Source of the DNA: Polaromonas sp. AER18D-145
Lineage (GTDB): Bacteria > Pseudomonadota > Gammaproteobacteria > Burkholderiales > Burkholderiaceae_C
DNA length: 64,000 bases
Reading direction: 5' to 3'
NCBI RefSeq assembly: GCF_002379095.1
Contig: NZ_NBZV01000002.1
Coordinates: 124,001 to 188,000 of the forward strand
The notes below the pieces were generated by a model, which was not told the DNA's origin, did no database searches, and saw only the letters and a program-made list of their open reading frames with translations. Shown piece after piece: positions 5,065-24,396 of this stretch (positions are counted from its first letter, which is position 1; every line of letters begins with the position of its first letter). Made by a program: the position numbers and the translations under genes.

Positions 5065-6376
5065 CGGGAAAGACAATCGAAAATCGCGAGCCCTGGCCAG
5101 GCTGGCTTTCGATGCGAAGCTCGGCACCGTGGCGCTGTGTCACATGTTTGACAATCGCCAGGCCCAGCCCGGTGCCGCCGGTTTCACGCGAGCGGCTGCG
5201 ATCCACCCGGTAAAAACGTTCGGTCAGGCGCGGAATGTGTTCCGCAGCGATGCCTGGTCCGGTGTCCTGGACCTGGAATTCTCCCCGGCCATCGTCGAGC
5301 AGCCGCCAGCTGACCTTGATCAGGCCTGCGGGCGGGGTGTAACGCACGGCGTTGGTCACGAGGTTCGACATGGCGCTGAGAAGTTCGTTCTGCACGCCCG
5401 CCAGCTCGCAGGGTGGACCCGGTTCAAACTCCAGCCTGTGGCCCGCAGGGGCCAGCATGGCCGACAGCGAGCGCGCCTCCTGCTCGCATTGCGCCAGCAA
5501 GGCACCGGTCGTCACCCACTCAGCGGTATCGGGGAACGGGCTGCCCTCAAGCCGGGACAAGGTGAGCAGGTCGTTGACCAACGTCTGCATGCGCTGCGAC
5601 TGCTGCGCCATCAGGCCCAGGTACCTGACTCGCTCGGGCTCCTTGAGCGGCAGCGTCTGCAGCGTTTCAATAAAGCCCGACAACACCGTCAGCGGCGTGC
5701 GGATTTCATGTGACACATTCGCCACAAAATCGCGGCGCATGGCTTCTGCCAGCTCAAGCGCGGTGACGTCCCTCGACAGAAGCAGCTTGCGGTCCCTGCC
5801 GTAGGCATGCAGATGCACCGCCAGCCTGACGGGCCGCGCCGGCGTTGACCGGCCGCCAGGGATCATCACATCGCGCGAGAAGTTGCCCGAGCCCAGGTAG
5901 GCCGTAAAAGCGGGATCACGCACGAGGTTGGCAATATGCTGCATCACGTCGCGTTGAGCGTCAAAACCAAAATGCTGGGCGGCTGTCTGGTTGCACCATT
6001 CAATCCGCCCGTCAGCATCGAGCAGCACCACGCCGTTCGGCGAAGCCTGCATGGCCGCCAGGAATTCGTTGAGGCGTGTCTGGCTTTCCTGGTAATGGCG
6101 ATCACGGTTCTTCAGCATGCGACGGGTCCGGTCGGCGATTTCACCCCACACCCCGCCGGCTGGCGGAGATGCGCTGGGCAACGGGCCGGGTTCTTCAACG
6201 TTCTGCTCGGCTCGCAACCACTTCAGCAAACGCGTAGTCTGCAAGCTATCGATCAAGAGCCAGACATTGCTGGCAATCAGAAGTCCCGGCGCCATGCCAT
6301 CCTTGCCGCCCAACCACCAACCCAAGCCAGACCCGAGCAGCAGAAGGGCTGCAAAAGTTATCCAGCGATTGATCAT
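5036..6376 (-). CDS. phoR: Phosphate regulon sensor histidine kinase PhoR
   Basis: This 446-residue protein has two N-terminal membrane segments (residues about 5-45), a PAS domain (about 95-205), a HisKA domain with phosphoacceptor His223 in NVSHEIRTPLTVL, and a HATPase domain with N, G1 (DTGPGIA) and G2 (GGTGLGLAIVKH) boxes. It phosphorylates PhoB when phosphate is scarce and receives its signal from the PstSCAB transporter through PhoU. Its start overlaps the phoB stop in ATGA, so it is translated with phoB as the last gene of the pst-pho cluster. Its 3' end overlaps the convergent MATE gene by 29 bases. Confidence 0.95.
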   Translation of the reverse strand: MINRWITFAALLLLGSGLGWWLGGKDGMAPGLLIASNVWLLIDSLQTTRLLKWLRAEQNVEEPGPLPSASPPAGGVWGEIADRTRRMLKNRDRHYQESQTRLNEFLAAMQASPNGVVLLDADGRIEWCNQTAAQHFGFDAQRDVMQHIANLVRDPAFTAYLGSGNFSRDVMIPGGRSTPARPVRLAVHLHAYGRDRKLLLSRDVTALELAEAMRRDFVANVSHEIRTPLTVLSGFIETLQTLPLKEPERVRYLGLMAQQSQRMQTLVNDLLTLSRLEGSPFPDTAEWVTTGALLAQCEQEARSLSAMLAPAGHRLEFEPGPPCELAGVQNELLSAMSNLVTNAVRYTPPAGLIKVSWRLLDDGRGEFQVQDTGPGIAAEHIPRLTERFYRVDRSRSRETGGTGLGLAIVKHVTQRHGAELRIESQPGQGSRFSIVFPATRVRPVQP

Positions 6377-7098
6377 GTCCCGGATTGTGCCGCAGCGGGC
6401 TGACCGACCGTTGCCAGCGCTGTCAGCCTGTAACCCGCGCCGCGTACCGTTTCCACCATCGCACCGGCCGCGCCGAGCGCCTCGCGCAGGCGCTTGACGT
6501 GCACGTCCACCGTGCGTTCCTCGATGAACACGTGGTCGCCCCAGACCTTGTCCAGCAGCGTGCTGCGGCTGTGCACCCGCTCGGCATGTTTCATCAGGTA
6601 GTGCAGCAGCTTGAACTCCGTGGGGCCGAGCTTGAGCTCCTGACCCTGGAAGGAAATGCGGTGCGTGGCAGCGTCGAGCAACAGCTCGCCGACCGTCACA
6701 CTGTCGTTGACCGACTCCGGCGCACGCCGGCGCAGCACCGCGCGTATGCGGGCCAGCAACTCCTGCGTGGAAAAGGGCTTGGTGATGTAGTCGTCGGCGC
6801 CGGCATCCAGCCCGGCGACTTTGTCGGGTTCGTCTCCCTTGGCGGTCAGCATCAGGATCGGAATGCTTTTGGTACGGGCCTGTTTGCGCAGGTGCCGCGC
6901 CAGCGACAGCCCGCTTTGCCCGGGGAGCATCCAGTCCAGCAAAATCGCATCGGGAAGCACCGCATCGAGTTCGCGCTGCGCGGCCACGCTGTCGCCGGCA
7001 ATCACCGGGGAGAAGCCGCCGTGCGTCAGGTTCACTGCGATGAGCTCGGCAATCGCCGGTTCGTCCTCAACAATCAGTATGCGCGGCTGGTGTTTCAT
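6373..7098 (-). CDS. phoB: Phosphate regulon response regulator PhoB
   Basis: The 241-residue OmpR-type regulator starts at ATG 7098 (MKHQPRILIVEDEPAI); a longer frame to 7209 would run into phoU and has no family support. The receiver domain has the acidic pocket Glu11/Asp12, phosphoacceptor Asp55 (LLDWMLPG) and Lys107 (ITKPFS). The C-terminal winged helix (about 140-235) shows GPTEFKLLHYLM and ERTVDVHVKRLR. PhoB-P binds tandem CTGTCAT-type repeats; such sites are found here ahead of pstS, ppk and phoX. It lies 16 bases after phoU and overlaps phoR. Confidence 0.96.
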   Translation of the reverse strand: MKHQPRILIVEDEPAIAELIAVNLTHGGFSPVIAGDSVAAQRELDAVLPDAILLDWMLPGQSGLSLARHLRKQARTKSIPILMLTAKGDEPDKVAGLDAGADDYITKPFSTQELLARIRAVLRRRAPESVNDSVTVGELLLDAATHRISFQGQELKLGPTEFKLLHYLMKHAERVHSRSTLLDKVWGDHVFIEERTVDVHVKRLREALGAAGAMVETVRGAGYRLTALATVGQPAAAQSGT

Positions 7099-7114
7099 GT
7101 GCAGGTGAAGTCCA

Positions 7115-7816
7115 TTACTTGACCGCCGACTCGATCTGATCCATCGAGGTGTGCCGGACGTCGGCGCCCTTGACGATGTAAATGATGAACTCGGCAATGT
7201 TCTTGGCATGATCGCCGACGCGCTCGATGGCCTTGGCCACGAACAGCAGGTCCAGGCTCGGCGAAATGGTGCGCGGGTCTTCCATCATGTAGGTGATGAG
7301 CTTGCGCACGAAACCGTCAAACTCCCGGTCAATCAGGTCATCTTCCTTCAGGATCGAAACAGCCGCGGCCGTATCGAGACGGGCAAACGCATCCAGCGCC
7401 TTGCGCAGCAGCGCAGACGCAAGCTCTGCCGCCACATTCAGTTCTGAAGCAGGCAGGGCCCGCGAAGAACCGCTTTCAATGATGGACTTGACCATGCGGG
7501 CGATTTTTTCCGCCTCGTCACCGGCACGCTCCAGATTCGCCGTGGTTTTCGAAATCGCAATCAGCAGCCGCAGATCGCGTGCGGTCGGCTGGCGCCGCGC
7601 AATGATGGACGACAGATCACGGTCAATGTCGACTTCCATCGCATTGACCTGGGCCTCGGTCTCAATCACCTTGTTGGCGGTTTCGGCGCTGAACTGCGAC
7701 AGTGCATAAATGGCGTGGCGAATCTGGGATTCGACCAGCCCGCCAAGCTCCATCACGCGGGAGGATACGGTGTTGAGTTCGCTGTCGAACTGGGTAGACA
7801 AATGTTTTTCGGGCAT
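7115..7816 (-). CDS. phoU: Phosphate signalling protein PhoU
   Basis: The 233-residue protein is all-helical with two copies of the PhoU repeat (residues about 15-105 and 118-215). Each has an acidic E/DxxxD metal-cluster pattern, for example VMELGGLVESQI and RAGDEAEKIARM in the first copy and RVGDHAKNIAEFI in the second. PhoU links the Pst transporter to PhoR and keeps the Pho regulon off when phosphate is plentiful; its loss in related bacteria gives constitutive phosphate uptake. It sits between pstB (20-base gap) and phoB in the same transcription unit. Confidence 0.95.
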   Translation of the reverse strand: MPEKHLSTQFDSELNTVSSRVMELGGLVESQIRHAIYALSQFSAETANKVIETEAQVNAMEVDIDRDLSSIIARRQPTARDLRLLIAISKTTANLERAGDEAEKIARMVKSIIESGSSRALPASELNVAAELASALLRKALDAFARLDTAAAVSILKEDDLIDREFDGFVRKLITYMMEDPRTISPSLDLLFVAKAIERVGDHAKNIAEFIIYIVKGADVRHTSMDQIESAVK

Positions 7817-7836
7817 GGTGCGCTCCTGGTGTCTGG

Positions 7837-8619
7837 TCAGCCGAAACGGCCGGTGATGTAGTCTTCGGTTTCCTTGCGCTTGGGTTTGAAGAAGAGGTCT
7901 TCGGTCGCACCAAACTCGATCAGGTCGCCCAGGTACATGTAGGCCGTGTAGTCACTGCAGCGGGCCGCCTGCTGCATGTTGTGTGTCACGATGACGACCG
8001 TGTAGTCTTCCTTCAGTTCGGCAATCAGCTCTTCGATCTTGGCGGTCGACAGCGGATCAAGCGCCGAGCAGGGTTCGTCGAGCAACAGTACTTCCGGCTT
8101 GATCGCTATGCCGCGCGCGATACACAGGCGCTGTTGCTGGCCGCCCGACAGGCTGGCGCCGTTCTGGTTGAGTTTGTCCTTGACCTCATTCCACAGCGCG
8201 GCCTTGCCCAGCGCCCATTCGACGCGCTCGTCCATGTCGCTGGCGTTCAGGCTTTCGAACAGCTTCACACCATAGGCAATGTTGTCGTAAATGGACATGG
8301 GAAACGGCGTGGGTTTCTGGAACACCATGCCGATGCGCGCACGGATCAGCGAGACGTCTTCCTTGGACGTGATCATGTTCTCGCCGCCCATCATGACCTG
8401 GCCCTCGGCGCGCTGGTCGGGGTAAAGCTCATACATGCGGTTGAAGGTCCGCAACAGGGTGGATTTCCCGCAGCCCGAGGGGCCGATGAAAGCCGTGACC
8501 TTCTTTTCCGGAATGTCCAGGTTGACGTTCTTGATCGCGTGGAACTTGCCGTAGTAAAAATTCAGGTCGCGCACCGACATCTTGACCGTTTCATTGCGCG
8601 CCAGGGGAGTTGTTTGCAT
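7837..8619 (-). CDS. pstB: Phosphate ABC transporter ATP-binding protein PstB
   Basis: The 260-residue ATPase has Walker [10 protein letters not shown] (residues 46-54), the Q-loop in [11 protein letters not shown], the ABC signature LSGGQQQR, Walker B VLLLDEP and the H-loop in VIVTHN. The [12 protein letters not shown] element after the Q-loop is typical of PstB. It powers high-affinity phosphate import through PstCA. It is separated from pstA by 12 bases and from phoU by 20. Confidence 0.97.
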
Positions 8620-8631
8620 CTCGCTTCTTCC

Positions 8632-9507
8632 TCAATTCTTGTTTCTGAAAAGCACGCGTGCCAGGATGTTCAGCGCCAGCACACCCAGCGTGATCAGCAG
8701 CACGCCGGCCCAGGCCAGCTTCTGCCAGTTCTCGAACGGGCTCATGGCGAACTTGAATATCGTCACAGGCAGGCTGGCCATCGGCTGGCTCAGGTCGCTC
8801 GTCCAGAACTGGTTGGAAAGCGCGGTGAAGAGCAGCGGCGCGGTTTCACCGGCCACGCGAGCCACTGCCAGCAGCACACCGGTCACGACACCGGCCTGCG
8901 CGGCCCGCAGCGTGATGCCCATGATCACCTTCCACTTCGGGCTGCCCAGGGCATAGGCGGCTTCCCGCAGCGCGTTTGGAACCAGCTTGAGCATGTTGTC
9001 CGTGGTCCGAATGACCACGGGAATGATCAGCAGCGCCAGGGCAACCACACCGGCCCAACCTGAAAAGCTTTTGACCTGGGCAACAATCAAGGCATAAACA
9101 AACAGGCCGACAACGATGGACGGAGCCGACAGCAGGATGTCGTTCACAAAACCGGTCAGCTTGCCCAGGCGCGTGTGGGCGCCATATTCGGCGAGATAGA
9201 TGCCGGCCAGCACGCCGATCGGCGTGCCCAGCGCGGTCGCCAGCAACACCATGGTGAGCGAGCCGAAGATGGCGTTGGCCAGCCCGCCGGTTTCAGCATT
9301 GGGCGGCGGCGTCATTTCGGTGAACAGGGCGATGCTGAGCCCCCCCAGACCGAGGCGGAAGGTTTCGAAAAGAATCCACATCAGCCAGAAAAGGCCAAAG
9401 GCCATGGCCCCCAGCGAGAGCGTGATGGCGACGATGTTCACCGTCTTGCGGTGGCGAAACTTGGCCAGCCGGGCCTGCTGGGCGGGGTTTGTTCCTGCGC
9501 TGCTCAT
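8632..9507 (-). CDS. pstA: Phosphate ABC transporter permease PstA
   Basis: The 291-residue permease has six membrane segments and a BPD_transp_1 domain (about residues 75-285). The coupling-loop EAA region reads [27 protein letters not shown]. The start ATG overlaps the pstC stop in ATGA. It pairs with PstC to form the phosphate channel in the inner membrane. Confidence 0.96.
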
Positions 9508-10469
9508 GTTCGGACTCCCTCGCCCTTTTGCAGGCGTGACAGCAGCAGCTTGGACAGACTCAGGACCACGAAGGTAATGAAGAACAGGACCAGGCCCAGG
9601 TAAATCAGCGCGGCCTGGTGCAGACCTTCACTGGCTTCCGCAAACTCGTTAGCCAGTGCGGAGGTGATGCTGTTGGCCGCCTGAAACAGGGACAGGGAAT
9701 CGAGCTGGTTGAAATTGCCGATCACAAAAGTCACCGCCATGGTTTCGCCAAGCGCCCGACCCAGACCAAGCATGATGCCGCCGATCACGCCGGCCTTGGT
9801 ATAGGGCAACACAATCCTGAAAACAACTTCCCAGGTGGTGGCGCCCAGCGCATACGCCGACTCCTTGAGCATGGGCGGGGTGACCTCAAACACATCACGC
9901 ATGACCGAAGCAATGAACGGGATGATCATGATGGCCAGAATGATGCCTGCGGCCAGAATGCCAATGCCGACAGGCGGACCGGAGAACAGCGCGCCCAGAT
10001 AAGGCACATCGCCAAAAGCGGCCTGCAAAGGCGCCTGAACATAGGTGGCAAGGATGGGGCCAAAGACCAGCAGGCCCCACATGCCATAAACGATGGAGGG
10101 CACGGCCGCCAACAGTTCGATGGCCACGCCCAGCGGCCGCCTGAGCCAGCGCGGTGACAGCTCGGTCAGAAACAATGCAATTCCAAAACTCACTGGCACG
10201 GCAATCAGCAGCGCGACAAACGAGGTCATCAGCGTGCCGTAGATCATTACCAGGCCGCCGTATTTGTTCTGGACCGGGTCCCATTCAGAGGTCCACAGGA
10301 AACTCAGGCCGTATTCCCTGATGGCCGGCCAGGCGCCCACGACGAGTGCCAGGATGATGGCTGCCAGAAGCAACAAGGTGACCACAGCCGCCAGCCGCGC
10401 CATCCATTCAAAGACCAGATCGGCAGTCCGGCTTGATCGGCGCTTGGTTGGGGAAGGGGGAACTGACAT
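9504..10469 (-). CDS. pstC: Phosphate ABC transporter permease PstC
   Basis: The start is set at ATG 10469 ([15 protein letters not shown]), giving 321 residues; the longer frame to 10517 adds 16 unsupported residues. Six membrane segments are visible, with an EAA loop reading [22 protein letters not shown] long periplasmic loop after the first helix (residues about 45-85, [16 protein letters not shown]) is characteristic of PstC. It follows pstS after a strong hairpin (10540-10571), which probably lowers its expression relative to the binding protein. Confidence 0.95.
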
Positions 10470-10539
10470 GGTCGTTTCTCTGCTGCTGTATGAACTTGCA
10501 GGAAGTGTAGCTGCCACGGCAGACTCCTAAACAGATATG

Positions 10540-10571
10540 AAAAAAGGCGAAGCGACGCCCGTCGCTTCGCC
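10540..10571 (-). terminator. Hairpin with T-run between pstS and pstC (likely attenuator)
   Basis: Read on the minus strand, GGCGAAGCGAC pairs perfectly with GTCGCTTCGCC and is followed by six T. It lies 15 bases after the pstS stop and about 70 bases before pstC. Partial termination here would give more PstS than PstCAB, as is usual for binding-protein transporters; 3'-end protection of pstS mRNA is an alternative role. Confidence 0.88.
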
Positions 10572-10586
10572 CACTCCGAAGCGTAC

Positions 10587-11630
10587 TTACTTGACCGCAA
10601 CGGCCTTTCCGGAACCATCGGTGATCTTGCCCCAGGACTGGCGAATGACTGCCTTCACCGAGTCGGGCATCGGAACGTAGTCAAGGTCATCGGCCATCTT
10701 GTCACCGCTGCCGTAGGCCCAGTCGAAAAACTTCAGCGTCTGGGTGGCCTGGGCCGGCTTGTCCTGCTTGGCGTGCATCAGGATGAATGTCGCGCCGGTG
10801 ATGGGCCAGGAGTCCTTGCCTGGCTGCTCGGTCAGGATCTGGTAGAACGACTTGCTCCATGCGGCTCCTGCGGCGGCCGCCTTGAACGCCGTGTCGCTGG
10901 GCTGGACATAGCTGCCAGCTGCATTGCGCATCGCCACGTGGGTTTGCTTGTTCTGCTTGGCATAGGCGTACTCGACATAACCGATCGAATTGGGCAGACG
11001 CTGCACAAAAGCGGAGACGCCCTCGTTGCCTTTGCCGCCGGCACCGGTGGGCCAGTTCACCGCGGTACCCTCACCCACTTTGGCTTTCCACTCGGGGTTC
11101 ACCTTGGACAGGTAGTTGGTGAAGATGAAGCTGGTGCCGGAACCGTCGGCACGACGGACCACGGCAATCGCGGCGTCCGGCAACGGCACGCCGGGATTCA
11201 AGGCGGTGACGGCAGCATCATTCCACTTGGTGATCTTTCCGAGGTAGATATCGCCCAGCACGGCGCCCGTCAGCTTGATCTGGCCGGCGGCGACACCCTT
11301 GATATTGACAACGGGAACGACACCACCGATCACGGTCGGAAACTGCAGCAGGCCGTCTTTGGCCAATTCAGCATCGGTCAGCGGCGCATCGGAAGCACCG
11401 AAGTCAACGGTTTTGCCGCGGATCTGGCGAAGGCCGGCACCGGAGCCCACGGATTGGTAGTTGATCCGCACGCCGGTCGCCTTGTTGTAGGCGTCTGCCC
11501 ACTTGGCATAAATCGGCGCAGGGAAGGAGGCGCCGGCGCCGGTGACGTCCTGGGCACTTGCCACGGAGGCAAAAGAAAGAGCGGTCAGGGCCAGCACGCT
11601 GGCGACGGTCGCCTTGAAATTCAGATTCAT
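10587..11630 (-). CDS. pstS: Phosphate-binding periplasmic protein PstS
   Basis: The start is ATG 11630, preceded by AGGTG; the frame extends to 11705 but that part overlaps the Pho box. The 347-residue protein has a signal peptide ending at about Ala26 (FASVASA). The mature protein starts with the phosphate-site loop [14 protein letters not shown], and further binding residues are seen in GASDAPLT and [11 protein letters not shown]. It captures phosphate in the periplasm and delivers it to PstCA. It is the first gene of the pst-pho cluster, with a good PhoB box about 50 bases upstream. Confidence 0.97.
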
Positions 11631-11680
11631 TCGTACACCTCTTGAGTTGATGAAAGATGTAAGGACTGTAGGAGGCTTGT

Positions 11681-11698
11681 GTGACAGCTGTATGACAA
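11681..11698 (-). promoter_or_regulatory. PhoB binding site (Pho box) ahead of pstS
   Basis: On the minus strand this reads TTGTCATACAGCTGTCAC: two 7-base repeats (TTGTCAT, CTGTCAC) spaced by 11 bases, nearly identical to the consensus CTGTCATANATCTGTCAC. It is 51 bases upstream of the pstS start. Confidence 0.9.
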
Positions 11699-11760
11699 CC
11701 CCCATTCATCCGGCCGAGCCTGGCCGCCCAAACCCACGGGAGCCCCGGACGGTGCGGAGA

Positions 11761-13610: not shown

Positions 13611-13675
13611 GAGCGCCACCGCCGATGCGGGTGCCACGCGAGTGCTATGCTGAGCCTCCTCTCAGACGCTCACAC

Positions 13676-15169
13676 ATGCAAAATGGAACCCGCCTGGCTG
13701 CCGTGGACCTTGGGTCCAACAGTTATCGCCTCGAAATAGGCCGTCTCGATCACGGCCAGATCCACCGTACCGAATACCTCAAGGAAACCGTGCGCCAGGG
13801 CAACGGCCTGGATGAGGAGCGCAACCTCACGCCGGACGCCATGCAGCGCGGCTGGGACTGCCTTGCGCGGTTTGGCGAGCGCCTCGCCGGCTTCAGGAAG
13901 GGGGAGGTGCGCGCCGTCGCCACCCAGACCCTGCGCGAAGCCCGCAACCGCGACGTTTTTCTGCAGCGCGCCCACAAGGTGCTGGGCTTTCCCATCGACG
14001 TGATCTCGGGACGCGAGGAAGCCCGCCTGATCTACCAGGGTGTGGCGCACCTGCTGCCCCAGTCCGGTGAACGCCGCCTGGTCGTGGACATCGGGGGCCG
14101 GTCCACCGAAATGATCCTGGGCAAGGGTCTGGACGCAGTGACCATGGAATCCTACCGTGTCGGCAGCGTGGGCTGGTCCATGAAGTATTTCCCCGATGGC
14201 CAGTTCACTGCGCGGGCCTTCCAGGCGGCCGAGGTGGCGGCCAAGGCGGTTCTGGACGAAGCCATCAACCTTTACCGCGGCGGCTGGGACGTGGCCTACG
14301 GCTCGTCGGGCACCGTGGGCGCTGTCAGCGACGTGCTGGTGGCGGCGGGCTGGCCTCCGGGCCTGGTCACACGCGAAGGGCTGGACTGGCTGCTGGACCG
14401 GCTGCTCAAGGCCCAAAGCGCAGAACGCCTCAAGCTCGAGGGCATGAAGGACGACCGGCGTGCCGTGATTGGCGGCGGCGTCAGCGTGCTGCGCGCCGTG
14501 TTCGAGTTGATGGGTATTGACCAGATGCAGACCGCCCAGGGCGCCCTGCGCCATGGCGTGCTGTATGACCTGCTGGACCGCGAGGAAGAAACCACCGACC
14601 TGCGCTCGACCACCGTGCAGCGACTGACGCGAAAATTTGAAGTTGACACGGCGCAGGCCGAGCGCGTCAGCAAGGTCGCCCGCGCCCTCTTCGCGCAGGC
14701 CAGCACCGGCCTGTCGGCGGCCGAACTGGGGCGTGTCCAGCGCAAGCTCGATTGGGCCGCCCTGCTGCATGAAATCGGCAGCCATATCTCGCACAGCGAC
14801 TACCACAAGCACGGCGCCTACATCCTGGACAACGCCGATGCACCCGGTTTTACCCTGCAGGAACTGCACCGCCTGAGCCTGCTGGTGCTGGGCCACCGCG
14901 GCAAGCTGCGCAAGCTGGAAGCCGATTTCGACGACGAGGTTTTCGTGCTGCAGCTGCTCTGCCTGCGGCTGGCGGTGATTCTCTGCCATGCGCGCCGCGA
15001 GCCCGACGCCAGGGGCATGCAGATCGCCAGCGCAGGCCAACGCCAGTTTTCGCTGCTCTGCCGACCGGGCTGGGCCGAAGCCTTTCCCCAGTCAGCGCAC
15101 TTGTTGCGCGAAGAGGTCCTGGCCTGGCAGAAAACGCCGTGGACAGTGGCGCTGGCGGGCGTCTGGTGA
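13676..15169 (+). CDS. ppx: Exopolyphosphatase, Ppx/GppA family
   Basis: The start is ATG 13676 (MQNGTRLAAVDLGSNSYRL), giving 497 residues, the usual bacterial Ppx length. The actin-like ATPase fold is shown by DLGSNSYRLEIGR near residue 10 and VVDIGGRSTEMILG near residue 140. A C-terminal HD-like helical domain (from about residue 310) has HEIGSHISHSDYHKHGAYI. It removes terminal phosphate from polyphosphate or pppGpp. It is convergent with ppk-sixA, so the enzymes for making and breaking polyphosphate are side by side beside pst-pho. Confidence 0.93.
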   Translation: MQNGTRLAAVDLGSNSYRLEIGRLDHGQIHRTEYLKETVRQGNGLDEERNLTPDAMQRGWDCLARFGERLAGFRKGEVRAVATQTLREARNRDVFLQRAHKVLGFPIDVISGREEARLIYQGVAHLLPQSGERRLVVDIGGRSTEMILGKGLDAVTMESYRVGSVGWSMKYFPDGQFTARAFQAAEVAAKAVLDEAINLYRGGWDVAYGSSGTVGAVSDVLVAAGWPPGLVTREGLDWLLDRLLKAQSAERLKLEGMKDDRRAVIGGGVSVLRAVFELMGIDQMQTAQGALRHGVLYDLLDREEETTDLRSTTVQRLTRKFEVDTAQAERVSKVARALFAQASTGLSAAELGRVQRKLDWAALLHEIGSHISHSDYHKHGAYILDNADAPGFTLQELHRLSLLVLGHRGKLRKLEADFDDEVFVLQLLCLRLAVILCHARREPDARGMQIASAGQRQFSLLCRPGWAEAFPQSAHLLREEVLAWQKTPWTVALAGVW

Positions 15170-15363: not shown

Positions 15364-15834
15364 TCAAAGAAGTTCCGGCGATTGCACCGTGACCAGCACG
15401 GTCTGCAACCCCCCTTCGCGTTCACGCGTGCGCAGCCACCAGAGCGCCCCCTTCTTCACGGCGCAATCGCTTTCCTGCAGGCCCAGCAACTGGGCAATGG
15501 TTTGCCCCAGCGTCGGCTGATGGCCGATCACCAAAATTGGCAGCTTGTTGACCGGCCATTGCACCAGTTCGAGAAGCTGCGACGGCGGCGCGTCGGGCCC
15601 CAGTTCCGCACGGATCTTGTACTTGCGCCCCAGCGCCAGCGCCGTCTGCTCGCAGCGGCGCGCCGGACTCACCAGAATACGCGCCCGTTCCGGCAACTGC
15701 CGGTCCAGCCAGCCGGCCATGCGGGCTGCCTGCTTCTCGCCTCTGGGCGTCAGTGAACGTTCGAGGTCGTTCCCGCTCTGCGCGTCGGCAGGCGACTCTT
15801 CAGCCTCTGCATGACGCCACAGGATCAGGTCCAT
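15364..15834 (-). CDS. sixA: SixA-type phosphohistidine phosphatase
   Basis: The 156-residue protein belongs to the histidine phosphatase branch with the short SixA fold. The catalytic motif is LWRHAEA (His8), followed by Arg at the start of SPARRCEQTA and the second His in VIGHQPTLG. SixA enzymes dephosphorylate phosphohistidine, for example on HPr-like proteins. The gene starts only two bases after the ppk stop, so it is in one transcript with ppk. A link to phosphohistidine chemistry of Ppk (which uses an active-site phosphohistidine) is attractive but untested. Confidence 0.88.
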   Translation of the reverse strand: MDLILWRHAEAEESPADAQSGNDLERSLTPRGEKQAARMAGWLDRQLPERARILVSPARRCEQTALALGRKYKIRAELGPDAPPSQLLELVQWPVNKLPILVIGHQPTLGQTIAQLLGLQESDCAVKKGALWWLRTREREGGLQTVLVTVQSPELL

Positions 15835-15836
15835 CG

Positions 15837-17975
15837 CTAGGCTGCCAACACGGCGCCGCCAGCCGAGTAGCGGGCCATCAGCGCGGCCTGCGCCCCGTTC
15901 TGCTCACCCTGAGGCGACGCACCGGCCCGCAGGTAACTTCCATCGGGCTGCAGGTCCCAGGCGTCCTGGCTGTCATGCAGGTAGGCGACCAGGCACTCGT
16001 CAATGATGCGCTGGCGCAGCACGGGATCGGTCACCGACCAGACCAGCTCGACGCGCCGCAGCATGTTGCGGTTCATCCAGTCGGCGCTGGACAGGTACAG
16101 GGTTTCCTCCCCGTCACAGCGGAAATAGAACACGCGTGAATGCTCCAGGAAGCGGCCGATGATGGAACGCACGCGGATGTTGTCCGTCACTCCCGGAACG
16201 CCGGCAGGCAGCATGCAGGCGCCGCGCACCACCAGGTCAATTTTCACGCCGCGCTGCCCTGCCTTGACCAGGGCCAGCATCAGGCTCTCGTCGGTCAGGG
16301 CGTTCATCTTGGCCACCAGGCGCGTGTCCTTGCCGAGCGCAGCGGCTTCCGCCAGGGCATCGATTTTCTCGATCAGCTTGCGGTGCAGCTGAAACGGCGC
16401 CACCAGCAGGCGCTGCAGCCGGGGCAATTTACTCTGGCTGGCCAGATGCCCGAAGACGCTGTCGATCTCCGCGGTCAGTTCCGGGTCGCCGGTCAGGTAA
16501 CTCACATCGGTGTACAGGCGCGCGGTGGTCGGGTTGTAGTTGCCGGTGGAAAGATGGGCGTAACGCACCAGTTGCCGACCTTCACGCCGTGTCACCAGCA
16601 GCATCTTGGCGTGGGTCTTGAGCCCGACCACGCCATAGACCACCTGCGCCCCGATCGACTCCAGCATCTCGGCCCAGTTGATGTTGGCTTCCTCGTCAAA
16701 GCGCGCCTTGAGCTCGAGCACCACCGTAACTTCCTTGCCGCGACGCACCGCCTCGCGCAGCAGGACCATGAGTTCGGAGTCGGGCCCGGTGCGGTAAATG
16801 GTCTGCCGGATGGCCAGCACCTGCGGGTCGTTCACCGCCTCGCGCAGGAAATCGAGCACACCGTTGAAACTCTCGAAAGGCTGGTGGATGGACACGTCGC
16901 CCTGCTTGAGCCGCTCGAAAAACGACTGCCCCGGCACCAGCTGCGTCGGGTAACAGGCCTTGTAGGGCGGAAAAAGCAGCTTCGGGTCATTGACCAGGTC
17001 CACCAGCTGGGTCAGGCGCACCAGGTTGACCGGGCCATGCACCCGGTACAAGGCTTCTGCAGGCAGGCTGAACTGGCCCAGCAGAAAGTCCGACAGGTGT
17101 TTGGAGCAGCCGGCCGACACCTCCAGGCGCACCGCCTGCCCGTAATGACGCTGCTCCAGGCCCAGACGCAGCGCGGTGCGCAGGTTTTTCACGTCGTCCT
17201 CATCCACCGCCAGGTCGGAATGACGCGTCACGCGAAACTGCGAAAACTCCCCGACTTGGCGGCCCGGAAACAGGTCGGCCAGGTGCGCCCGGATGATGCT
17301 CGACAGCGAGACAAACAGCAGCTTCTTCTGCGAGCCCTTGTCGGGCATGTGGATCAGGCGCGGCAATACCCGCGGCACCTTGACGATCGCAATGTCGTTC
17401 TCGCGGCCGAAGGCATCCCGCCCGCCGAGCCGGACAATGAAATTCAGTGACTTGTTGGCCACCTGGGGAAACGGGTGCGAAGGGTCCAGCCCGACCGGAA
17501 TCAACAGCGGCCGAACCTCACGCTCGAAGTAGGCCTTGACCCAGCGGCGCTGCGCCGCACTGCGGTCGCCGTGGGAAACAATCCGTATGCCCTGCTTCGC
17601 GAACTCGGGCATCAATTCGTCGTTGTACAGCGCGTACTGGCGCGCCACCATGTCGTGGGCGGCGGCAGACAGTGCCTTGAAAGACTCGGTCGAGTAAGGG
17701 GCCTTCTGTTCCTGATTGAGCGCAGCCGTCAGATGCAGCGCAGCGCGCACTTCGAAAAACTCGTCCAGGTTGGACGAAACAATGCACAGGAAGCGCAGCC
17801 GCTCCAGCAGCGGCACGTCGGGCCGCCTGGCCCAGTCCAGCACCCGCTCGTTGAACGCCAGGATGCTGTGATCCCGGTCCAGGAACTGGACCGCTGCAGC
17901 CGCGGCAGATGCGCTCGCAGCCGGGGGCGAATTGGCAGAATTTTGAAACATTCGGTCCGAGCTGGTAATTGTCAT
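15837..17975 (-). CDS. ppk1: Polyphosphate kinase Ppk1
   Basis: The 712-residue protein covers the four Ppk1 domains. The N-terminal domain begins LDRDHSILAFNERVLDWA, and the head domain includes LRFLCIVSSNLDEFFEVR. The two catalytic C-terminal domains carry GLKTHAKMLLVTRR, with the phosphorylated His, and LYLSSADWMNRN. Ppk1 makes polyphosphate from ATP. An Ala/Ser-rich stretch of about 20 residues precedes the conserved start, so ATG 17951 is an alternative start. Three Pho box repeats lie 31-59 bases upstream, and sixA follows at once. Confidence 0.96.
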   Translation of the reverse strand: MTITSSDRMFQNSANSPPAASASAAAAAVQFLDRDHSILAFNERVLDWARRPDVPLLERLRFLCIVSSNLDEFFEVRAALHLTAALNQEQKAPYSTESFKALSAAAHDMVARQYALYNDELMPEFAKQGIRIVSHGDRSAAQRRWVKAYFEREVRPLLIPVGLDPSHPFPQVANKSLNFIVRLGGRDAFGRENDIAIVKVPRVLPRLIHMPDKGSQKKLLFVSLSSIIRAHLADLFPGRQVGEFSQFRVTRHSDLAVDEDDVKNLRTALRLGLEQRHYGQAVRLEVSAGCSKHLSDFLLGQFSLPAEALYRVHGPVNLVRLTQLVDLVNDPKLLFPPYKACYPTQLVPGQSFFERLKQGDVSIHQPFESFNGVLDFLREAVNDPQVLAIRQTIYRTGPDSELMVLLREAVRRGKEVTVVLELKARFDEEANINWAEMLESIGAQVVYGVVGLKTHAKMLLVTRREGRQLVRYAHLSTGNYNPTTARLYTDVSYLTGDPELTAEIDSVFGHLASQSKLPRLQRLLVAPFQLHRKLIEKIDALAEAAALGKDTRLVAKMNALTDESLMLALVKAGQRGVKIDLVVRGACMLPAGVPGVTDNIRVRSIIGRFLEHSRVFYFRCDGEETLYLSSADWMNRNMLRRVELVWSVTDPVLRQRIIDECLVAYLHDSQDAWDLQPDGSYLRAGASPQGEQNGAQAALMARYSAGGAVLAA

Positions 17976-18005
17976 GAATCTGACTTGTCAGTGTGCGCGG
18001 ATTTG

Positions 18006-18034
18006 ATGACAGAAGCGTGACAACATCATGACAA
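18006..18034 (-). promoter_or_regulatory. Three-unit Pho box ahead of ppk1
   Basis: Read on the minus strand, the units TTGTCAT, TTGTCAC and CTGTCAT occur at exact 11-base spacing, which is one and a half overlapping PhoB sites. The only gene downstream in this direction is ppk1, whose start is 31 bases away. Confidence 0.9.
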
Positions 18035-18039
18035 ATGTT

Positions 18040-19107
18040 TCAGGCTGCGGCTTGCGCCGTCACCTGGGGACTGGCGACCTGGCCACGTACCGGCACCAGA
18101 TACCCTTCGAACAGCTGGGCGGCATGCGCCCAGCTGAAGTCCAGCGAACGGATACGGGCTTCATGGCGCGGCACCGCCATCGCGCTGTAACAGGCGCGCT
18201 TCAGGTCCTCATCCAGCACACCGCCCTGGCGGCTGCCGTCTGGCTTGCCCAGCACCTCCAGCGGGCCGTCGACCGGGTAGGCCGCGACCGGCGTGCCGCT
18301 GGCCATGGCTTCCAGCATCACCAGGCCGAAGGTTTCCGACCGGCTGGGGAAAACAAACACATCGGCGGCGGCGTACACCCGGGCCAGTTCGTCCCGCGGC
18401 AGCACACCGAGCCAGCGCACCTGCGGATAACGCTCCTTGAGGGATGCCTCCAGCGGCCCGACGCCGCAGACCACCTTGCTCCCCGGAATGTCCAGGGCCA
18501 GGAAGGCCTCGATGTTTTTCTCATACGACACGCGGCCGACAAACAGCGACACCGGCCGCACCAAGGTGCCCATGCGGGGGTAAAGCCGCGCCTCGGGATG
18601 AAACGGGAACAAGGCGGTGTCCACCCCATGCGTCCAGCTGCGCAGCTGGCGAAAACCGCGCTGCTGCAGCATGCGCAACACGCCGTGGGTGGGAACCATG
18701 ACCCCGGAGGAGGCCTTGTGAAAATGACGGAACAGCGCATACCCCCAGGACAGCGGTATTTTCAGCGCGGCATGGAGGATTTCCGGAAACTTGGTGTGGA
18801 AAGCGGTGGTGAAACGCTGACCCCGCTTCAGGCAGTAGCTGCGCGCCGCCCAGCCGAGCGGGCCTTCGGTGGCGATGTGGATGGCTTCGGGTGCAAACGC
18901 ATCGAGCCGGGCGGTCAGCAAGGCTTTCGGACGCACGGCCAGGTCGATGCCGGCATAACCCGGGCAGGGCCGCGTCCTGAACAGGCCAGGATGGATGACT
19001 TCCACCGTGTGCCCCAGGACCTGCAGTTCACGCACCAGCTCCACCAGCGTGGTGACCACGCCGTTGACCTGCGGCTGCCAGGCGTCGGTAACCAGGGCAA
19101 TCTTCAT
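18040..19107 (-). CDS. Family 4 glycosyltransferase, probable glycolipid synthase (Agt-like)
   Basis: The start is ATG 19107 (MKIALVTDAWQPQVNGVV), overlapping the upstream gene by four bases; the longer frame lies inside that gene. The 355-residue protein has a GT-B fold: N-terminal glycine-rich acceptor loop, then a C-terminal nucleotide-sugar site with LFVGRVSYEKNIEAFL, GVGPLEASLKE and the EX7E motif in FPSRSETFGLVMLEAMASG. In alphaproteobacteria a glycosyltransferase (Agt) beside PlcP makes glucosyl- or glucuronosyl-diacylglycerol during phosphate starvation. The same arrangement here suggests the same job. The sugar donor cannot be told from sequence. Confidence 0.8.
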   Translation of the reverse strand: MKIALVTDAWQPQVNGVVTTLVELVRELQVLGHTVEVIHPGLFRTRPCPGYAGIDLAVRPKALLTARLDAFAPEAIHIATEGPLGWAARSYCLKRGQRFTTAFHTKFPEILHAALKIPLSWGYALFRHFHKASSGVMVPTHGVLRMLQQRGFRQLRSWTHGVDTALFPFHPEARLYPRMGTLVRPVSLFVGRVSYEKNIEAFLALDIPGSKVVCGVGPLEASLKERYPQVRWLGVLPRDELARVYAAADVFVFPSRSETFGLVMLEAMASGTPVAAYPVDGPLEVLGKPDGSRQGGVLDEDLKRACYSAMAVPRHEARIRSLDFSWAHAAQLFEGYLVPVRGQVASPQVTAQAAA

Positions 19108-19967
19108 GCGGCCACCGTGCCCGCCACATGGCCGCGGCCCTGCGTTTCGTGGGCAGGCGCCCAGTGCAGCAGCTCCAGCTTGCCGTCGTAGTGTTCCACC
19201 AGCGCGGTGCGGCTTTCGACCCAGTCGCCGTCGTTGCAATACAGAACGCCGTTGATGTCGCGCATCTCGGCGCGGTGGATGTGGCCACAAACCACCCCCT
19301 GGTGGCCGCGCCGGCGCGCCTCGTTGGCCACCGCAACTTCAAAGTCGGTGACGTAGTTCAACGCGCTCTTGACCTTGTGTTTGAGGTAGGCCGAGAGCGA
19401 CCAGTACGGCAGGCCCATGCGCGCGCGCAGGCTGTTGAGGTGGCGGTTGAGCTTGAGCGTGAATTCATAGAGGTTGTCGCCCACATAGGCCAGCCAGCGG
19501 GCGCACTGCACGACAGCGTCGAAATAGTCGCCGTGGACGATCCACAGGCGGCGGCCATCGGCCGTGACGTGGACCGCTTCTTCCATGACCTCGATGCCGC
19601 CGAACTGGTGGCCGATAAATTCACGCGCAAACTCATCGTGGTTGCCGGGCACGTAGACAATCCGGCAGCCCTTGCGTGCGCGCCGCAGCAGCTTTTGCAC
19701 CACGTCGTTGTGCGACTGCGGCCAGTACCATTTGCGCCGCAGTTGCCAGCCGTCCACGATGTCGCCCACCAGGTAGAGGTAGTCGCTGGGGTGTGCCCGC
19801 AGGAAGTCCAGCAGCGCCGCGGCCTGGCAGCCGGGCGTGCCCAGGTGCAGGTCGGAGATGAAGATGCTGCGGTAGCGCTTGCGCAGCCCGGCGTCGTCAT
19901 GCGCATCCTCCTCACCCGGTGGGAGACCCGGGTTGAGCGAGCCGAGCTTGTCGAACAGCGTGCGCAT
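19104..19967 (-). CDS. Calcineurin-like phosphoesterase, PlcP/LpxH family
   Basis: The 287-residue protein has the full metallophosphoesterase motif set: SDLHLG (residue 39 onward), GDIVDGW, GNHDE, VHGDYFD and GHIH. It resembles UDP-2,3-diacylglucosamine hydrolase, but the extended forms RKWYWPQSHNDVVQKLLR and VCGHIHRAEMR match the PlcP branch. PlcP is a phospholipase C that releases diacylglycerol from membrane phospholipids under phosphate limitation. It starts within the stop of the upstream acyltransferase gene (TGATG) and overlaps the glycosyltransferase gene by four bases, so the three are translationally coupled. A role in lipid A synthesis is the alternative, though the neighbours argue against it. 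Confidence 0.82.
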   Translation of the reverse strand: MRTLFDKLGSLNPGLPPGEEDAHDDAGLRKRYRSIFISDLHLGTPGCQAAALLDFLRAHPSDYLYLVGDIVDGWQLRRKWYWPQSHNDVVQKLLRRARKGCRIVYVPGNHDEFAREFIGHQFGGIEVMEEAVHVTADGRRLWIVHGDYFDAVVQCARWLAYVGDNLYEFTLKLNRHLNSLRARMGLPYWSLSAYLKHKVKSALNYVTDFEVAVANEARRRGHQGVVCGHIHRAEMRDINGVLYCNDGDWVESRTALVEHYDGKLELLHWAPAHETQGRGHVAGTVAA

Positions 19968-20821
19968 CAGTTCCCCCGCGCGGAAAAATGCTTGCGATAC
20001 CGCGGCGGCAGGTCGGCAATGCGCATCATCATGGGCAGGTCGGCCGAATTGAAGTCAGGGTCCCAGGCCGGTGCGCCCAGCACCCTGGCGCCCAGGCGCA
20101 GGTAACCCTTGATCAGCGCGGGCGGCTCGACGTCCAGCGAGTCGTCGAGCTGCTCGACCGGCAGGGCCAGGCGCGGCGTCACGTGGTATTCGATGGCTGC
20201 GAGGTGGCTTTGCCGCACCTGGCGCCAGATGCTGGCCGCGGCATGCCCGCTGCCGTATTCCGGATGGCCGCTGTGCTGCATCGGAATGCTGGCGCAGCCA
20301 ATCATGGTGTCGAGCTGGTTGCGCGCCATGAACTCGGCCAGAGCGCCCCACAAGGCCAGGATCACACCGCCGTGGCGATGCTCGGCATGCACACAGCTGC
20401 GCCCCAGCTCGACCATGCGTTCGCGCAGAGCGCGCAGGCGCGTCAGGTCAAACTCGGTGTCGCTGTAGGTGCTGCCCACGCGTTTGGCCTGGGTCGGCGT
20501 GAGCACGCGGTAAGTGCCTATGACTTCCTGGCTGGCTTCGTCGCGCACCAGCAGGTGTTCGCAGAAATCGTCGAACAGGTCGATGTCGTGGCCCGGCACC
20601 GTGCTTGGCAGCGTCGCCCCCATCTCCAGCGCGAAGACCTGGTACCTCAGCCGCTGCGCCTGCCGGACCTCGTCCTGGTGCCTGGCCCAGCCTACCTGGA
20701 TTTTCCCCGGCGCAGCCCCTTGAACAGCGACCGGATCGGCAGCATGAGAGCTTTGATGAAGTGACCCCCGTGGCATTGCGACTGGCGACAATGCAAAGGT
20801 GGGATTGGGCAGTTCTTTCAT
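19967..20821 (-). CDS. OlsB-like GNAT N-acyltransferase (ornithine lipid synthesis family)
   Basis: The start is ATG 20821, after AGGAG; an unsupported extension reaches 21160 inside phoX. The 284-residue protein has the autoinducer-synthase-like acyltransferase fold of OlsB. Recognisable segments are RLRYQVFALEMGA, DLFDDFCEHLLVRD, VIGTYRVLTP, RMVELGRSCVHAEHR and GCASIP. OlsB transfers a 3-hydroxyacyl group to ornithine, the first step towards phosphorus-free ornithine lipids. Its partner OlsA is not in the window. Grouping with PlcP- and Agt-like genes behind phoX supports a role in phosphate-starvation lipid exchange. Confidence 0.75.
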   Translation of the reverse strand: MKELPNPTFALSPVAMPRGSLHQSSHAADPVAVQGAAPGKIQVGWARHQDEVRQAQRLRYQVFALEMGATLPSTVPGHDIDLFDDFCEHLLVRDEASQEVIGTYRVLTPTQAKRVGSTYSDTEFDLTRLRALRERMVELGRSCVHAEHRHGGVILALWGALAEFMARNQLDTMIGCASIPMQHSGHPEYGSGHAAASIWRQVRQSHLAAIEYHVTPRLALPVEQLDDSLDVEPPALIKGYLRLGARVLGAPAWDPDFNSADLPMMMRIADLPPRYRKHFSARGN

Positions 20822-20864
20822 GGTGGACTCCTGGTTGTCTTCCGAAAATTCGCTCAAACGCTGC

Positions 20865-20890
20865 AAAAAAGCCCCGTTGCAGGGGCTTTT
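20865..20890 (-). terminator. Terminator/attenuator between phoX and the olsB-like gene
   Basis: On the minus strand AAAAGCCCC pairs with GGGGCTTTT across TGCAAC and ends in a six-T run. It lies 12 bases after the phoX stop and about 45 bases before the next start. No separate Pho box fits in the remaining gap, so downstream genes may depend on read-through. Confidence 0.9.
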
Positions 20891-20901
20891 GAACTGACTG
20901 A

Positions 20902-22854
20902 CTAGGTACCGACGACGCCGCCATCCTTGCGCCGGATGACGACGGTGGCCGAGCGCGGCCGCCCGCCCGCCGGGCCGTCCGGCCAATGGCTCACCGCCTT
21001 CGGCTGGGCCGGGTCGCCGCGTTCGCTGGCGGTCTCGCCGGGGTGCTGGATGTTGATGAACACCGCGCGGCGGTCCGGCGTGAAGCTCACCCCGGTGATC
21101 TCGCAGCCTGCCGGGCCCGTCAAAAAGCGTTTGGTCTCGCCGGTCGCCGGATCGGCGCACAGCATCATGTTGTTGCCCATGCCCTGGTAGGCGCCCTTGT
21201 GCATGGCCGAGGTCGAAATGTCGGTCTGTATCCAGAGCAGGCCGCCGGCGTCGAACTGCAGGCCGTCGGGGCTGCCGTACATGTCGCCCTTGATGGTGCC
21301 GCGGTATTCGGTCTTGCCGGCATTCGGGTCGCCGGCCAGCGCAAAGTGCATCCAGCGGAACTCGGTGGCGCTGGCGTCGCCGTCGAGCCGGCTGACAGCG
21401 CTGTCCTGACGGCTCTTGCCTTCGCGCCAGCGGATGATGTGGCCCATGATGTTGTCATTGCGCGGGTTGGCCGCGTCGGCCATGCGGCCGTCCTTGCCGC
21501 GGTTGCTGTTGTTGGTCAGCGTGACAAACACCTCGCCGGTGTTGGGGTGCACCGCCACCCATTCGGGGCGGTCCATCTTGGTGGCACCCACCACGTCTGC
21601 CGCCTGGCGGCACTTCACCACCACGTCGGCCTGGCTGGCAAAGCCGGCGGCGGCATTCAGGCCGCCCTCGCCATGCACCAGCGGCAACCAGCGGCCATAA
21701 CCCTGCTCGTCAAAACGTGCCACATACAGCGTGCCGTGGTCCAGAATGTCCTGGTTGGCGCGGTAACCGCCGGGTTTGACCTTGTCACGACTGACAAACT
21801 TGTAGATGTACTCAAACCGTTCGTCGTCGCCCATGTAAACCACCGCGCGGCCGTCGCGGCTCAAGGTTGTCGTTGCCCCTTCGTGTTTGATGCGGCCCAG
21901 CGCCGTGCGCTTGATCGGGGTCTGTGTCGGGTCCTGCGGATCGATTTCCACCACCCAGCCAAAGCGATGCGGCTCATTCGGGTGTTTGGCCGCGTCAAAA
22001 CGCTCGTCAAACTCGTGCCAGCGGTAACCGAACCCCTTGGCGCGCAGGCCATAACGCGCCTCGTCCGGGTTCGGCTTGTCCTGCGCCGAGAAGTAACCGT
22101 TCCAGTTTTCCTCGCAGGTCAGGAAGGTGCCCCAGGGCGTCTGGCCGGCGGCGCAATTGTTCAGCGTGCCCAGCGGCCGCATGCCCTCGGGATCGGCCGA
22201 TGTTTTCAGCAGCGCGTGTCCGGCGGCCGGGCCGCTGAACAGCATGGGTGTGTTGCCGGTGATGCGGCGCGCATAACGCGAGTTGGGCATCACGCGCCAC
22301 ACGCCGGCGCGTTCCACCACCTCGATCACGCTGACGCCGTGCGCCGCCTGCGACTTGCGTACTTTCTCGGCGGTCCAGGTCTTCATGCCGTCGCTGTGCA
22401 GCAGGCCGTCGTCGGTGTATTCGTGGTTGATGGCGAGCAGGCCATGGCGCGGGTTCCTGTCCAGCGGGAAATACTCCATGCCGTCGTGGTGCATGCCCGA
22501 CTGCAGCAACTGCTCCTGCCAGCTGTTGGACGCATCGGCACTGAAGGCCGGCGCCGCCGATCCGGCCATGCCGGTCGCGTCACCCCAGCGGTAAAGCACC
22601 TGGGCTTCGTACTCGGGCGGCACCACCAGCGCGTCGGCACTGGACACCGGCACCCCGGTAAAACCCAGCGGTTTGCCTTTGGCCACCGTGGCGGCGCTGG
22701 CCGTGAGGGTGTGCGAGCCCATCAGCAACGCCACCGCGGCCGTCGTGCAACGCAGCACATGGCGGCGCTCGCCGTCTACTTCATGAATGAAGGGATTGGA
22801 CGTCGTGTTGACGCCTTCACCCTGCTCGTAATCCTTGCCGAAACCCTGTCCCAT
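20902..22854 (-). CDS. phoX: PhoX-family alkaline phosphatase
   Basis: The start is ATG 22854 (MGQGFGKDYEQ), giving 650 residues; the frame beyond overlaps the Pho boxes. A twin-arginine signal (GERRHVLRC then a hydrophobic run to ASAA, residues about 28-56) predicts Tat export of a folded, metal-loaded enzyme. The DUF839 body includes LLAINHEYTDDGLLH, TFLTCEENWNGYF, RFGWVVEIDP and PEWVAVHPNTGEVFVTLTNN, matching Ca/Fe-dependent PhoX. It releases phosphate from organic esters in the periplasm or outside. Four Pho repeats lie just upstream, and a terminator follows. Confidence 0.94.
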   Translation of the reverse strand: MGQGFGKDYEQGEGVNTTSNPFIHEVDGERRHVLRCTTAAVALLMGSHTLTASAATVAKGKPLGFTGVPVSSADALVVPPEYEAQVLYRWGDATGMAGSAAPAFSADASNSWQEQLLQSGMHHDGMEYFPLDRNPRHGLLAINHEYTDDGLLHSDGMKTWTAEKVRKSQAAHGVSVIEVVERAGVWRVMPNSRYARRITGNTPMLFSGPAAGHALLKTSADPEGMRPLGTLNNCAAGQTPWGTFLTCEENWNGYFSAQDKPNPDEARYGLRAKGFGYRWHEFDERFDAAKHPNEPHRFGWVVEIDPQDPTQTPIKRTALGRIKHEGATTTLSRDGRAVVYMGDDERFEYIYKFVSRDKVKPGGYRANQDILDHGTLYVARFDEQGYGRWLPLVHGEGGLNAAAGFASQADVVVKCRQAADVVGATKMDRPEWVAVHPNTGEVFVTLTNNSNRGKDGRMADAANPRNDNIMGHIIRWREGKSRQDSAVSRLDGDASATEFRWMHFALAGDPNAGKTEYRGTIKGDMYGSPDGLQFDAGGLLWIQTDISTSAMHKGAYQGMGNNMMLCADPATGETKRFLTGPAGCEITGVSFTPDRRAVFINIQHPGETASERGDPAQPKAVSHWPDGPAGGRPRSATVVIRRKDGGVVGT

Positions 22855-22906
22855 GATCCACTCTCCATCGTGTATTTGACTGATGCGGTGATTCTGGAAG
22901 CGCGTG

Positions 22907-22946
22907 GTGACGTGTTCATGTCGGTTTGATGGCAGTTTGATGACAG
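22907..22946 (-). promoter_or_regulatory. Four-unit tandem Pho box ahead of phoX
   Basis: On the minus strand the units CTGTCAT, CTGCCAT, CCGACAT and ACGTCAC start at 22946, 22935, 22924 and 22913, exactly 11 bases apart. The first two are close to consensus and the last two are weaker. The phoX start is 53 bases away. Confidence 0.9.
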
Positions 22947-24043: not shown

Positions 24044-24075
24044 ACGTTCGCCAATCCAGCGGTAAATGCCTTGTG

Positions 24076-24309
24076 TTAGATGCGCCCAAGCATTCGAGCG
24101 ATAAATCCGACCATGCTGCCGGCGGGCGTGTAAATCGCAAGCGTGACGAGGCCCACCACCGTGACCAACCGGCAACCCACGATGCGGAGGTCACGGGACA
24201 CGAGCGCGTTGCGGCGCTCGCGGTCATCCTTGAACTCGCAGTACGGGTCGTCAGCCGAGGCGCGGCTTGGCACACCCCTTCCGTAGTTCGAGCTTGGGTT
24301 TTGCGCCAT
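24076..24309 (-). CDS. Small single-pass membrane protein beside the TIR gene
   Basis: This 77-residue protein starts at ATG 24309 with GGAGG six bases upstream, a better ribosome site than most genes nearby. The first 45 residues are polar with several Arg/Asp. Residues about 46-70 form one hydrophobic segment (VTVVGLVTLAIYTPAG and on). The family is unknown to me. It is 32 bases upstream of the TIR gene on the same strand and 87 bases from the divergent nuclease-STAND gene. A membrane partner or immunity-type role is possible but unproven. Confidence 0.55.
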   Translation of the reverse strand: MAQNPSSNYGRGVPSRASADDPYCEFKDDRERRNALVSRDLRIVGCRLVTVVGLVTLAIYTPAGSMVGFIARMLGRI

Positions 24310-24378: not shown

Positions 24379-24396
24379 GTAAATAGGTACAATAAA

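Follow-up and report, generated by a model that had tools for sequence, protein, structure and literature searches.

In the literature consulted, work on the replacement of membrane phospholipids by phosphorus-free lipids centres on marine alphaproteobacteria, rhizobia, methanotrophs, and Pseudomonas. In the accessible parts of the cited papers, which set the scope of all citations here, plcP-agt units with Pho boxes are described for marine bacteria and Pseudomonas aeruginosa (PMC4796936, PMC8528852), and plcP-agt units are also found in methanotrophs (PMC9239053). The PlcP, OlsA, OlsB, and PhoX proteins of Pseudomonas putida BIRD-1 are all Pho-dependent, with olsA-olsB, phoX, and plcP carrying far-apart locus numbers (PMC5082522), and the function of OlsB from Acinetobacter baumannii has been demonstrated with mutants (PMC11828411). 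Regarding betaproteobacteria, a Baltic metatranscriptome contains a membrane-remodelling category in which glpC is dominant (PMC13086504). The locus considered here, in which phoX is followed by olsB-like, plcP-like, and agt-like genes and then by ppk, lies head to tail on the minus strand of a 64-kb stretch of Polaromonas sp. AER18D-145 (contig NZ_NBZV01000002.1, positions 124,001 to 188,000), referred to as the window.

Family-level gene identities, gene overlaps, a Pho box, an intergenic hairpin, and a conserved order and regulatory layout, all read from the sequence, make it very probable that this locus is a PhoB-controlled lipid-remodelling operon of the PlcP-Agt kind with an aminolipid gene placed first, set within a Pho superlocus of the Comamonadaceae. 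The coupling of the three lipid genes claimed by an earlier note on this DNA is borne out, with the stop codon of olsB (19967..20821) and the start codon of plcP (19104..19967) sharing one base (TGATG) and the plcP stop and agt (18040..19107) start sharing four (ATGA). The olsB start is the ATG at 20821, with a GGAG site ahead of it.

The head gene phoX (20902..22854, minus strand) encodes a predicted exported PhoX-family alkaline phosphatase that covers the full PhoX domain (PF05787, 563 bits, profile positions 2-515 of 515). Its start was taken as the ATG at 22854; a longer frame beginning at 22977 was rejected, since it would include the Pho box and a similarly short N-terminus is found in relatives. 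The four Pho repeats reported earlier are indeed present at 22903..22946 on the minus strand, 48 bases ahead of the phoX start, and read CTGTCATCAAA CTGCCATCAAA CCGACATGAAC ACGTCACCACG from 22946 to 22903, each being 11 bases long. An automatic repeat finder returned no direct repeats at this box, and a matrix built from relatives was used instead, with which the box scored 33.7, whereas 1232 dinucleotide shuffles of upstream regions never exceeded 12.3 and had their 99th percentile at 7.0. It is the top match of the window on either strand; the second-best is a three-repeat box ahead of ppk (18002..18034, minus strand), whose score of 23.6 refers to the four-unit model over 18002-18045, and the third-ranked match, where the pstS frame begins, reaches 13.3.

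The product of plcP, a predicted phospholipase C of the calcineurin superfamily, carries the metal-binding motifs of that fold, with GDIVD, GNHD, and GHIH found by pattern and SDLHLG found by eye. It is 53.5% identical to the PlcP of Sinorhizobium meliloti over 254 aligned residues (49.8% over a longer tblastn alignment) and 56.3% identical to that of P. aeruginosa over 238 aligned residues (53.7% over a longer tblastn alignment). We take these two references to be the proven PlcPs, given neighbours that fit the published loci and a mutual identity close to the 46% figure. The value obtained here was 46.6%, with 46% published for the pair (PMC8528852). Public annotation would instead make the phosphoesterase an LpxH-like metallophosphatase acting in lipid A synthesis: the name 'UDP-2,3-diacylglucosamine diphosphatase' stands on 24 of the 30 PlcP-relative records listed (the other six bear no annotation there), and the closest solved structures by sequence are LpxH. 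However, a separate LpxH is encoded elsewhere in the genome, scoring 190 bits on the LpxH model and bearing GNRD where PlcPs have GNHD, whereas the window protein scores 43 bits, much as the two reference PlcPs do (38.9 and 44.5 bits), which bear that same public annotation. In a 14-row tree with the genome's own LpxH as sole outgroup, the window protein groups with PlcPs far from LpxH, although the tree is weakly resolved around both reference PlcPs, which weighs somewhat against a precise placement. The LpxH reading was discarded on the 43 versus 190 bits, the GNHD motif, the PlcP identities, and the tree, and must be considered extremely improbable, in agreement with the PlcP assignment of the earlier note. 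LpxH-type naming of PlcP relatives, as in those 24 records, can hide the lipid-replacement trait in surveys.

Assignment of the third lipid gene as Agt-type, likewise proposed before, is favoured by the placement of this GT4-domain glycosyltransferase gene directly 3′ of plcP on the minus strand and by 48.8% identity of its product to P. aeruginosa Agt1 in an alignment of 338 columns. Identity to the enzyme taken as Agt2, a glycosyltransferase adjoining a plcH-plcR pair, is 35%. No Agt model occurs among the NCBIfam matches of the window protein, and its best NCBIfam model, at 67 bits, lies far under the cut-off, as is also the case for P. aeruginosa Agt1.

The first lipid gene, on the minus strand like the others, encodes a putative amino-acid N-acyltransferase (Acetyltransf_5, 124 bits) whose top NCBIfam models are both OlsB, with 154 and 148 bits. 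It is the sole match of the genome to the OlsB model NF052554, and its product shares 46% identity with a Kitasatospora (actinobacterial) OlsB-like protein, itself scoring 143 bits on the OlsB model that gives 154 here, and 24% with A. baumannii OlsB. Several observations speak against a firm OlsB assignment: the scores fall below both equivalog cut-offs (154 versus 350 and 148 versus 320), identity to S. meliloti OlsB is only 34%, and most forks of the OlsB tree did not resolve. The A. baumannii gene taken as OlsB, with 77 and 54 bits, is also below these cut-offs. The OlsB-type claim of the earlier note is thus upheld in that OlsB models match best but not at the strict cut-offs, so the gene is named OlsB-like rather than filed as an equivalog, with ornithine as no more than the probable amino acid used. 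The missed cut-offs, weak matches to FeeM (24 bits) and to an exosortase-associated acyltransferase model (36 bits), and the finding that A. baumannii OlsB yields both ornithine and lysine lipids (PMC11828411) leave some room for an enzyme that makes a lysine, glutamine, glycine, or taurine lipid, or an N-acyl amino acid signal, in place of ornithine lipid. This reading is possible yet rather doubtful, as the OlsB models lie more than 100 bits above the runner-up among NCBIfam models, OlsF at 43 bits, and the gene of the 46% identical actinobacterial protein adjoins an OlsA-like gene.

Completion of an aminolipid would further call on an OlsA, and here too some points count against the proposed operon. 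The cluster itself contains no olsA, and the OlsA-like gene found elsewhere in the genome is unlinked, lying behind pyr-like genes as read by eye. At 123.5 bits (cut-off 300), with the next acyltransferase at 37 bits, this candidate is below both OlsA cut-offs, and the general PlsC model gives it 86.8 bits (cut-off 102.95); judged by these scores it may be a general PlsC instead.

Control by PhoB was approached through relatives. PlcP relatives occur at E 1e-20 in 106 of 150 family genomes (own included), four of which (G041, G048, G100, and G104) were left out to give a census of 102 loci, own included; across the phylum they occur at E 1e-25 in 149 of 398 sampled genomes, family members included. 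In 22 of the 102 loci the flanks extend no more than about 1.5 kb, so the phoX and ppk counts are lower bounds. In this family set, olsB lies directly ahead of plcP at 42 loci, the full olsB-plcP-agt order is found at 34, agt (above 40% identity) at 47, and ppk near plcP on the same strand at 48, while 35 loci have none of the other four genes near plcP on the same strand. The overlaps recur, with four bases at 36 of 47 plcP-agt junctions and one base at 16 of 42 olsB-plcP junctions, counts that are approximate as the starts were taken from alignment. A second, named set comprises the 80 top-ranking loci out of 579 confirmed stretches, which biases it to close kin; its triad is intact in 52 of 80 loci, from Polaromonas, Curvibacter, Ramlibacter, Acidovorax, Rhodoferax, Limnohabitans, Ottowia, and others. 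The PlcPs of Polaromonas sp. AET17H-212 and Polaromonas sp. JS666 share 98% and 85% identity, respectively, with the window protein, and even within this genus phoX can be missing from the head position.

Training of the Pho matrix used 32 regions upstream of olsB that have no phoX, and the phoX, plcP-first, phoX-headed, and ppk upstream sets were kept out of training. At the 99% shuffle level a box was found at olsB in 28 of 32 family loci without phoX ahead, a figure that is circular since these regions form the training set; among the failures, the box of L010 and of L027 precedes a small open reading frame (ORF), and L031 passes with a corrected start. At phoX-headed family loci the pattern is the opposite, with a box at olsB in none of nine (one at the 95% level) and a box at the phoX head in all six testable cases (own included). 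The named set shows the same layout, once four short-flank loci are skipped and 11 of 80 are set apart for having no olsB before plcP: of 49 headless loci, 45 carry a box no more than 300 bases from olsB, and for 40 the distance is at most about 130. The count of 45 is not fully independent, because some genomes are common to this set and the training set, as with the loci behind L160 and L044. The 16 headed named loci (six with phoX, ten with the small ORF) have a box at olsB in two cases and at the head gene in all 15 testable ones. Weighing against general Pho control are the four headless loci without a box (L169, L173, L198, and L203) and the plcP-first loci, of which 37 of 60 have a Pho box and 23 do not; ahead of ppk, a box passes the 99% level in 10 of 47 upstream regions. 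Taken together, these comparative boxes, at olsB in headless loci and at the head gene otherwise, argue for the Pho control predicted earlier.

The gap between phoX and olsB contains a terminator-like hairpin with a T run (20865..20890, minus strand; -15.3 kcal/mol, z -2.0). As 9 of 200 shuffles are equally stable and a terminator scan of 6 kb gave 7 such sites against 4.8 (sd 2.0) in shuffles, the hairpin is weak evidence on its own, and its weight comes from comparison with relatives. The stem recurs at six of nine phoX-olsB junctions of the family set, five with at least five T, and a terminator-like hairpin precedes olsB in 9 of 16 headed but only 2 of 49 headless named loci. Fisher tests of headed versus headless loci, which ignore kinship, gave p values of 1.5e-5 (hairpin) and 5e-9 (box). 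Exceptions are L073, the phoX-headed L206 with a box near olsB, and L174, where the box lies 219 bases upstream with a hairpin between.

Such a hairpin tells against a single transcription unit in that it could stop most transcription coming from phoX. Together with the lack of a 99%-level Pho box ahead of olsB at all nine phoX-headed family loci, it would suit a scheme in which phoX transcription ends at the hairpin and olsB-plcP-agt is expressed from a separate unrecognised promoter, perhaps not under PhoB, so that phoX and the lipid genes would be neighbours and not one unit. A promoter scan found no site anywhere in 6 kb, not even ahead of phoX, and is thus uninformative on an olsB promoter. 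The scheme appears unlikely, since headless relatives keep the box at olsB and loss of Pho control just in headed loci would be odd, only 43 bases separate the T run from the olsB start, and three of the nine phoX-olsB junctions have no such hairpin. Read most simply, this layout leaves the lipid genes under control of the head gene's Pho promoter, with the hairpin limiting read-through, so that expression of olsB-plcP-agt probably depends on read-through from phoX. The suggestion that the cluster is fused to phosphatase expression accordingly needs amending for the hairpin between phoX and olsB and for the absence of phoX from the head position within the genus.

The place of phoX ahead of olsB can be occupied by the small Pho-headed ORF, recognised by the core LRILRCTA...SPGGLRFKAGTRPWL and found at L127:4018-4275, L128:3807-4034, and also in L149-L153, L182, L184, L204, L205, and L208. 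The Polaromonas sp. JS666 record has it at this position in place of phoX. Of the 150 family genomes, two contain the ORF, each time ahead of olsB, and the two copies tested gave no Pfam match. Derivation from phoX was dismissed, the small ORF having only a weak collinear match to two PhoX parts (E 0.002 in a 10-sequence set). At L128:2147-3652, a CYTH-CHAD protein is encoded divergently from the small ORF, ahead of its Pho box. CHAD domains bind polyphosphate.

The proposed course of events is as follows. When phosphate is scarce, PhoB would bind the repeats ahead of phoX, and PhoX, once exported as predicted, would strip phosphate off outside organic phosphorus. Part of the transcripts would pass the hairpin after phoX and yield olsB-plcP-agt as one translationally coupled unit, from which PlcP would convert phospholipids to diacylglycerol and Agt would add a sugar to the latter. 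OlsB would make a lyso-aminolipid, probably with ornithine and possibly with lysine or another amino acid, to be completed by the unlinked OlsA-like acyltransferase. The general course, from PhoB activation and PhoX export to the PlcP, Agt, and OlsB reactions, follows from established work on these families. At this particular locus we infer PhoB binding, export, read-through, the enzyme activities with their specificities for sugar and amino acid, the part played by the OlsA candidate, and any passage of freed phosphate to Ppk. Only tentatively, the locus may further be regarded as a modular Pho switch with two steps, in which the head gene, either phoX or the gene of the small LRILRCTA...SPGGLRFKAGTRPWL protein, is exchangeable and the hairpin meters read-through into olsB-plcP-agt. 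Cells would then scavenge outside phosphorus first and dismantle their own phospholipids only afterwards or to a lesser degree, and the product of the neighbouring ppk could store the phosphate set free. With its hairpin and its exchangeable head gene, the locus offers a testable case of graded output within one Pho unit. More broadly, Polaromonas, Acidovorax, Ramlibacter, Limnohabitans, Curvibacter, and relatives are predicted to swap phospholipids for glycolipids and aminolipids through one Pho switch.

Beyond agt, the locus runs on into ppk-sixA-ppx-pst-phoBR. The polyphosphate kinase 1 gene ppk (15837..17975, minus strand; PP_kinase domains) adjoins the cluster and is often conserved with it, and is followed by a sixA-like histidine phosphatase gene (15364..15834, minus strand; PF00300, 43 bits), the exopolyphosphatase gene ppx (13625..15169, plus strand; Ppx-GppA, 245 bits), and a block of pstS, pstC, pstA, pstB, phoU, phoB, and phoR (5036..11705, minus strand). 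Domain matches name pstS, pstB, phoU, phoB, and phoR, while pstC and pstA are named by position in a conserved order. Among 11 further relative stretches, hand-picked from relatives' loci with ppk, eight carry sixA-ppx-pstSCAB-phoU-phoB-phoR beyond ppk as in the window; of the other three, one ends at a contig end and two are without the sixA-to-phoR block. The compact version in a betaproteobacterium described by the earlier note is therefore present, but it is common to many Comamonadaceae and reaches on to ppk and often to pst-phoBR.

On the other side, phoX is adjoined by a gene for a TIR protein (23093-24175) that matches the Thoeris ThsB model of PADLOC with 491 bits. Divergent from it, positions 24373-28446 encode a protein of 1357 residues that contains helix-turn-helix and Mrr-like nuclease domains and matches a STAND-NTPase model below its cut-off; it is a possible defence partner.

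Judged by title and abstract opening, the matches listed from the open-licence literature include no report of an olsB-plcP-agt operon or of lipid replacement in Comamonadaceae, which agrees with the earlier remark that such a cluster is little described. In one of the listings, no paper contained 'ornithine lipid' and 'Comamonadaceae' together. Among the closest described arrangements is PlcP-Agt1 of P. aeruginosa (PA3219-PA3218; PMC8528852), likewise plcP then agt with a Pho box ahead, at 56% and 49% identity to the window proteins; unlike the window, the 10.8-kb stretch examined around it holds no olsB, phoX, or ppk. This plcP-agt1 stretch with its neighbours is located on a plasmid record (L146, NZ_CP137508.1), apparently as a captured chromosomal segment. 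The marine plcP neighbourhoods of types 1-6 (PMC4796936) similarly combine plcP with agt and Pho boxes, and in the accessible part of that paper btaAB, agt, and other glycosyltransferases are named beside plcP, but not olsB or ppk. Betaproteobacterial olsB genes with predicted Pho boxes are described for Burkholderia sensu lato (21 of 43 genomes with a first matrix and 43 of 43 with a second; PMC7814305), where, as far as the accessible text goes, plcP or agt alongside is not reported, in contrast to the window. Phosphate-responsive aminolipid synthesis, predicted for the window, is described for olsB-olsA of Streptomyces coelicolor (PMC4686642), in which olsA adjoins olsB, whereas the window cluster is without olsA. 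In this respect it resembles A. baumannii, whose olsB is Pho-regulated and whose olsA is unlinked, as is the window's candidate, and not Pho-regulated (PMC11828411); the A. baumannii OlsB is, however, only 24% identical, and the 6.7-kb surroundings of its gene hold argB and others but not plcP or agt. The enzymes and the response are known; the variant that looks new is the probable operon joining aminolipid and glycolipid genes within a Pho superlocus, together with its hairpin and the exchangeable gene at its head.

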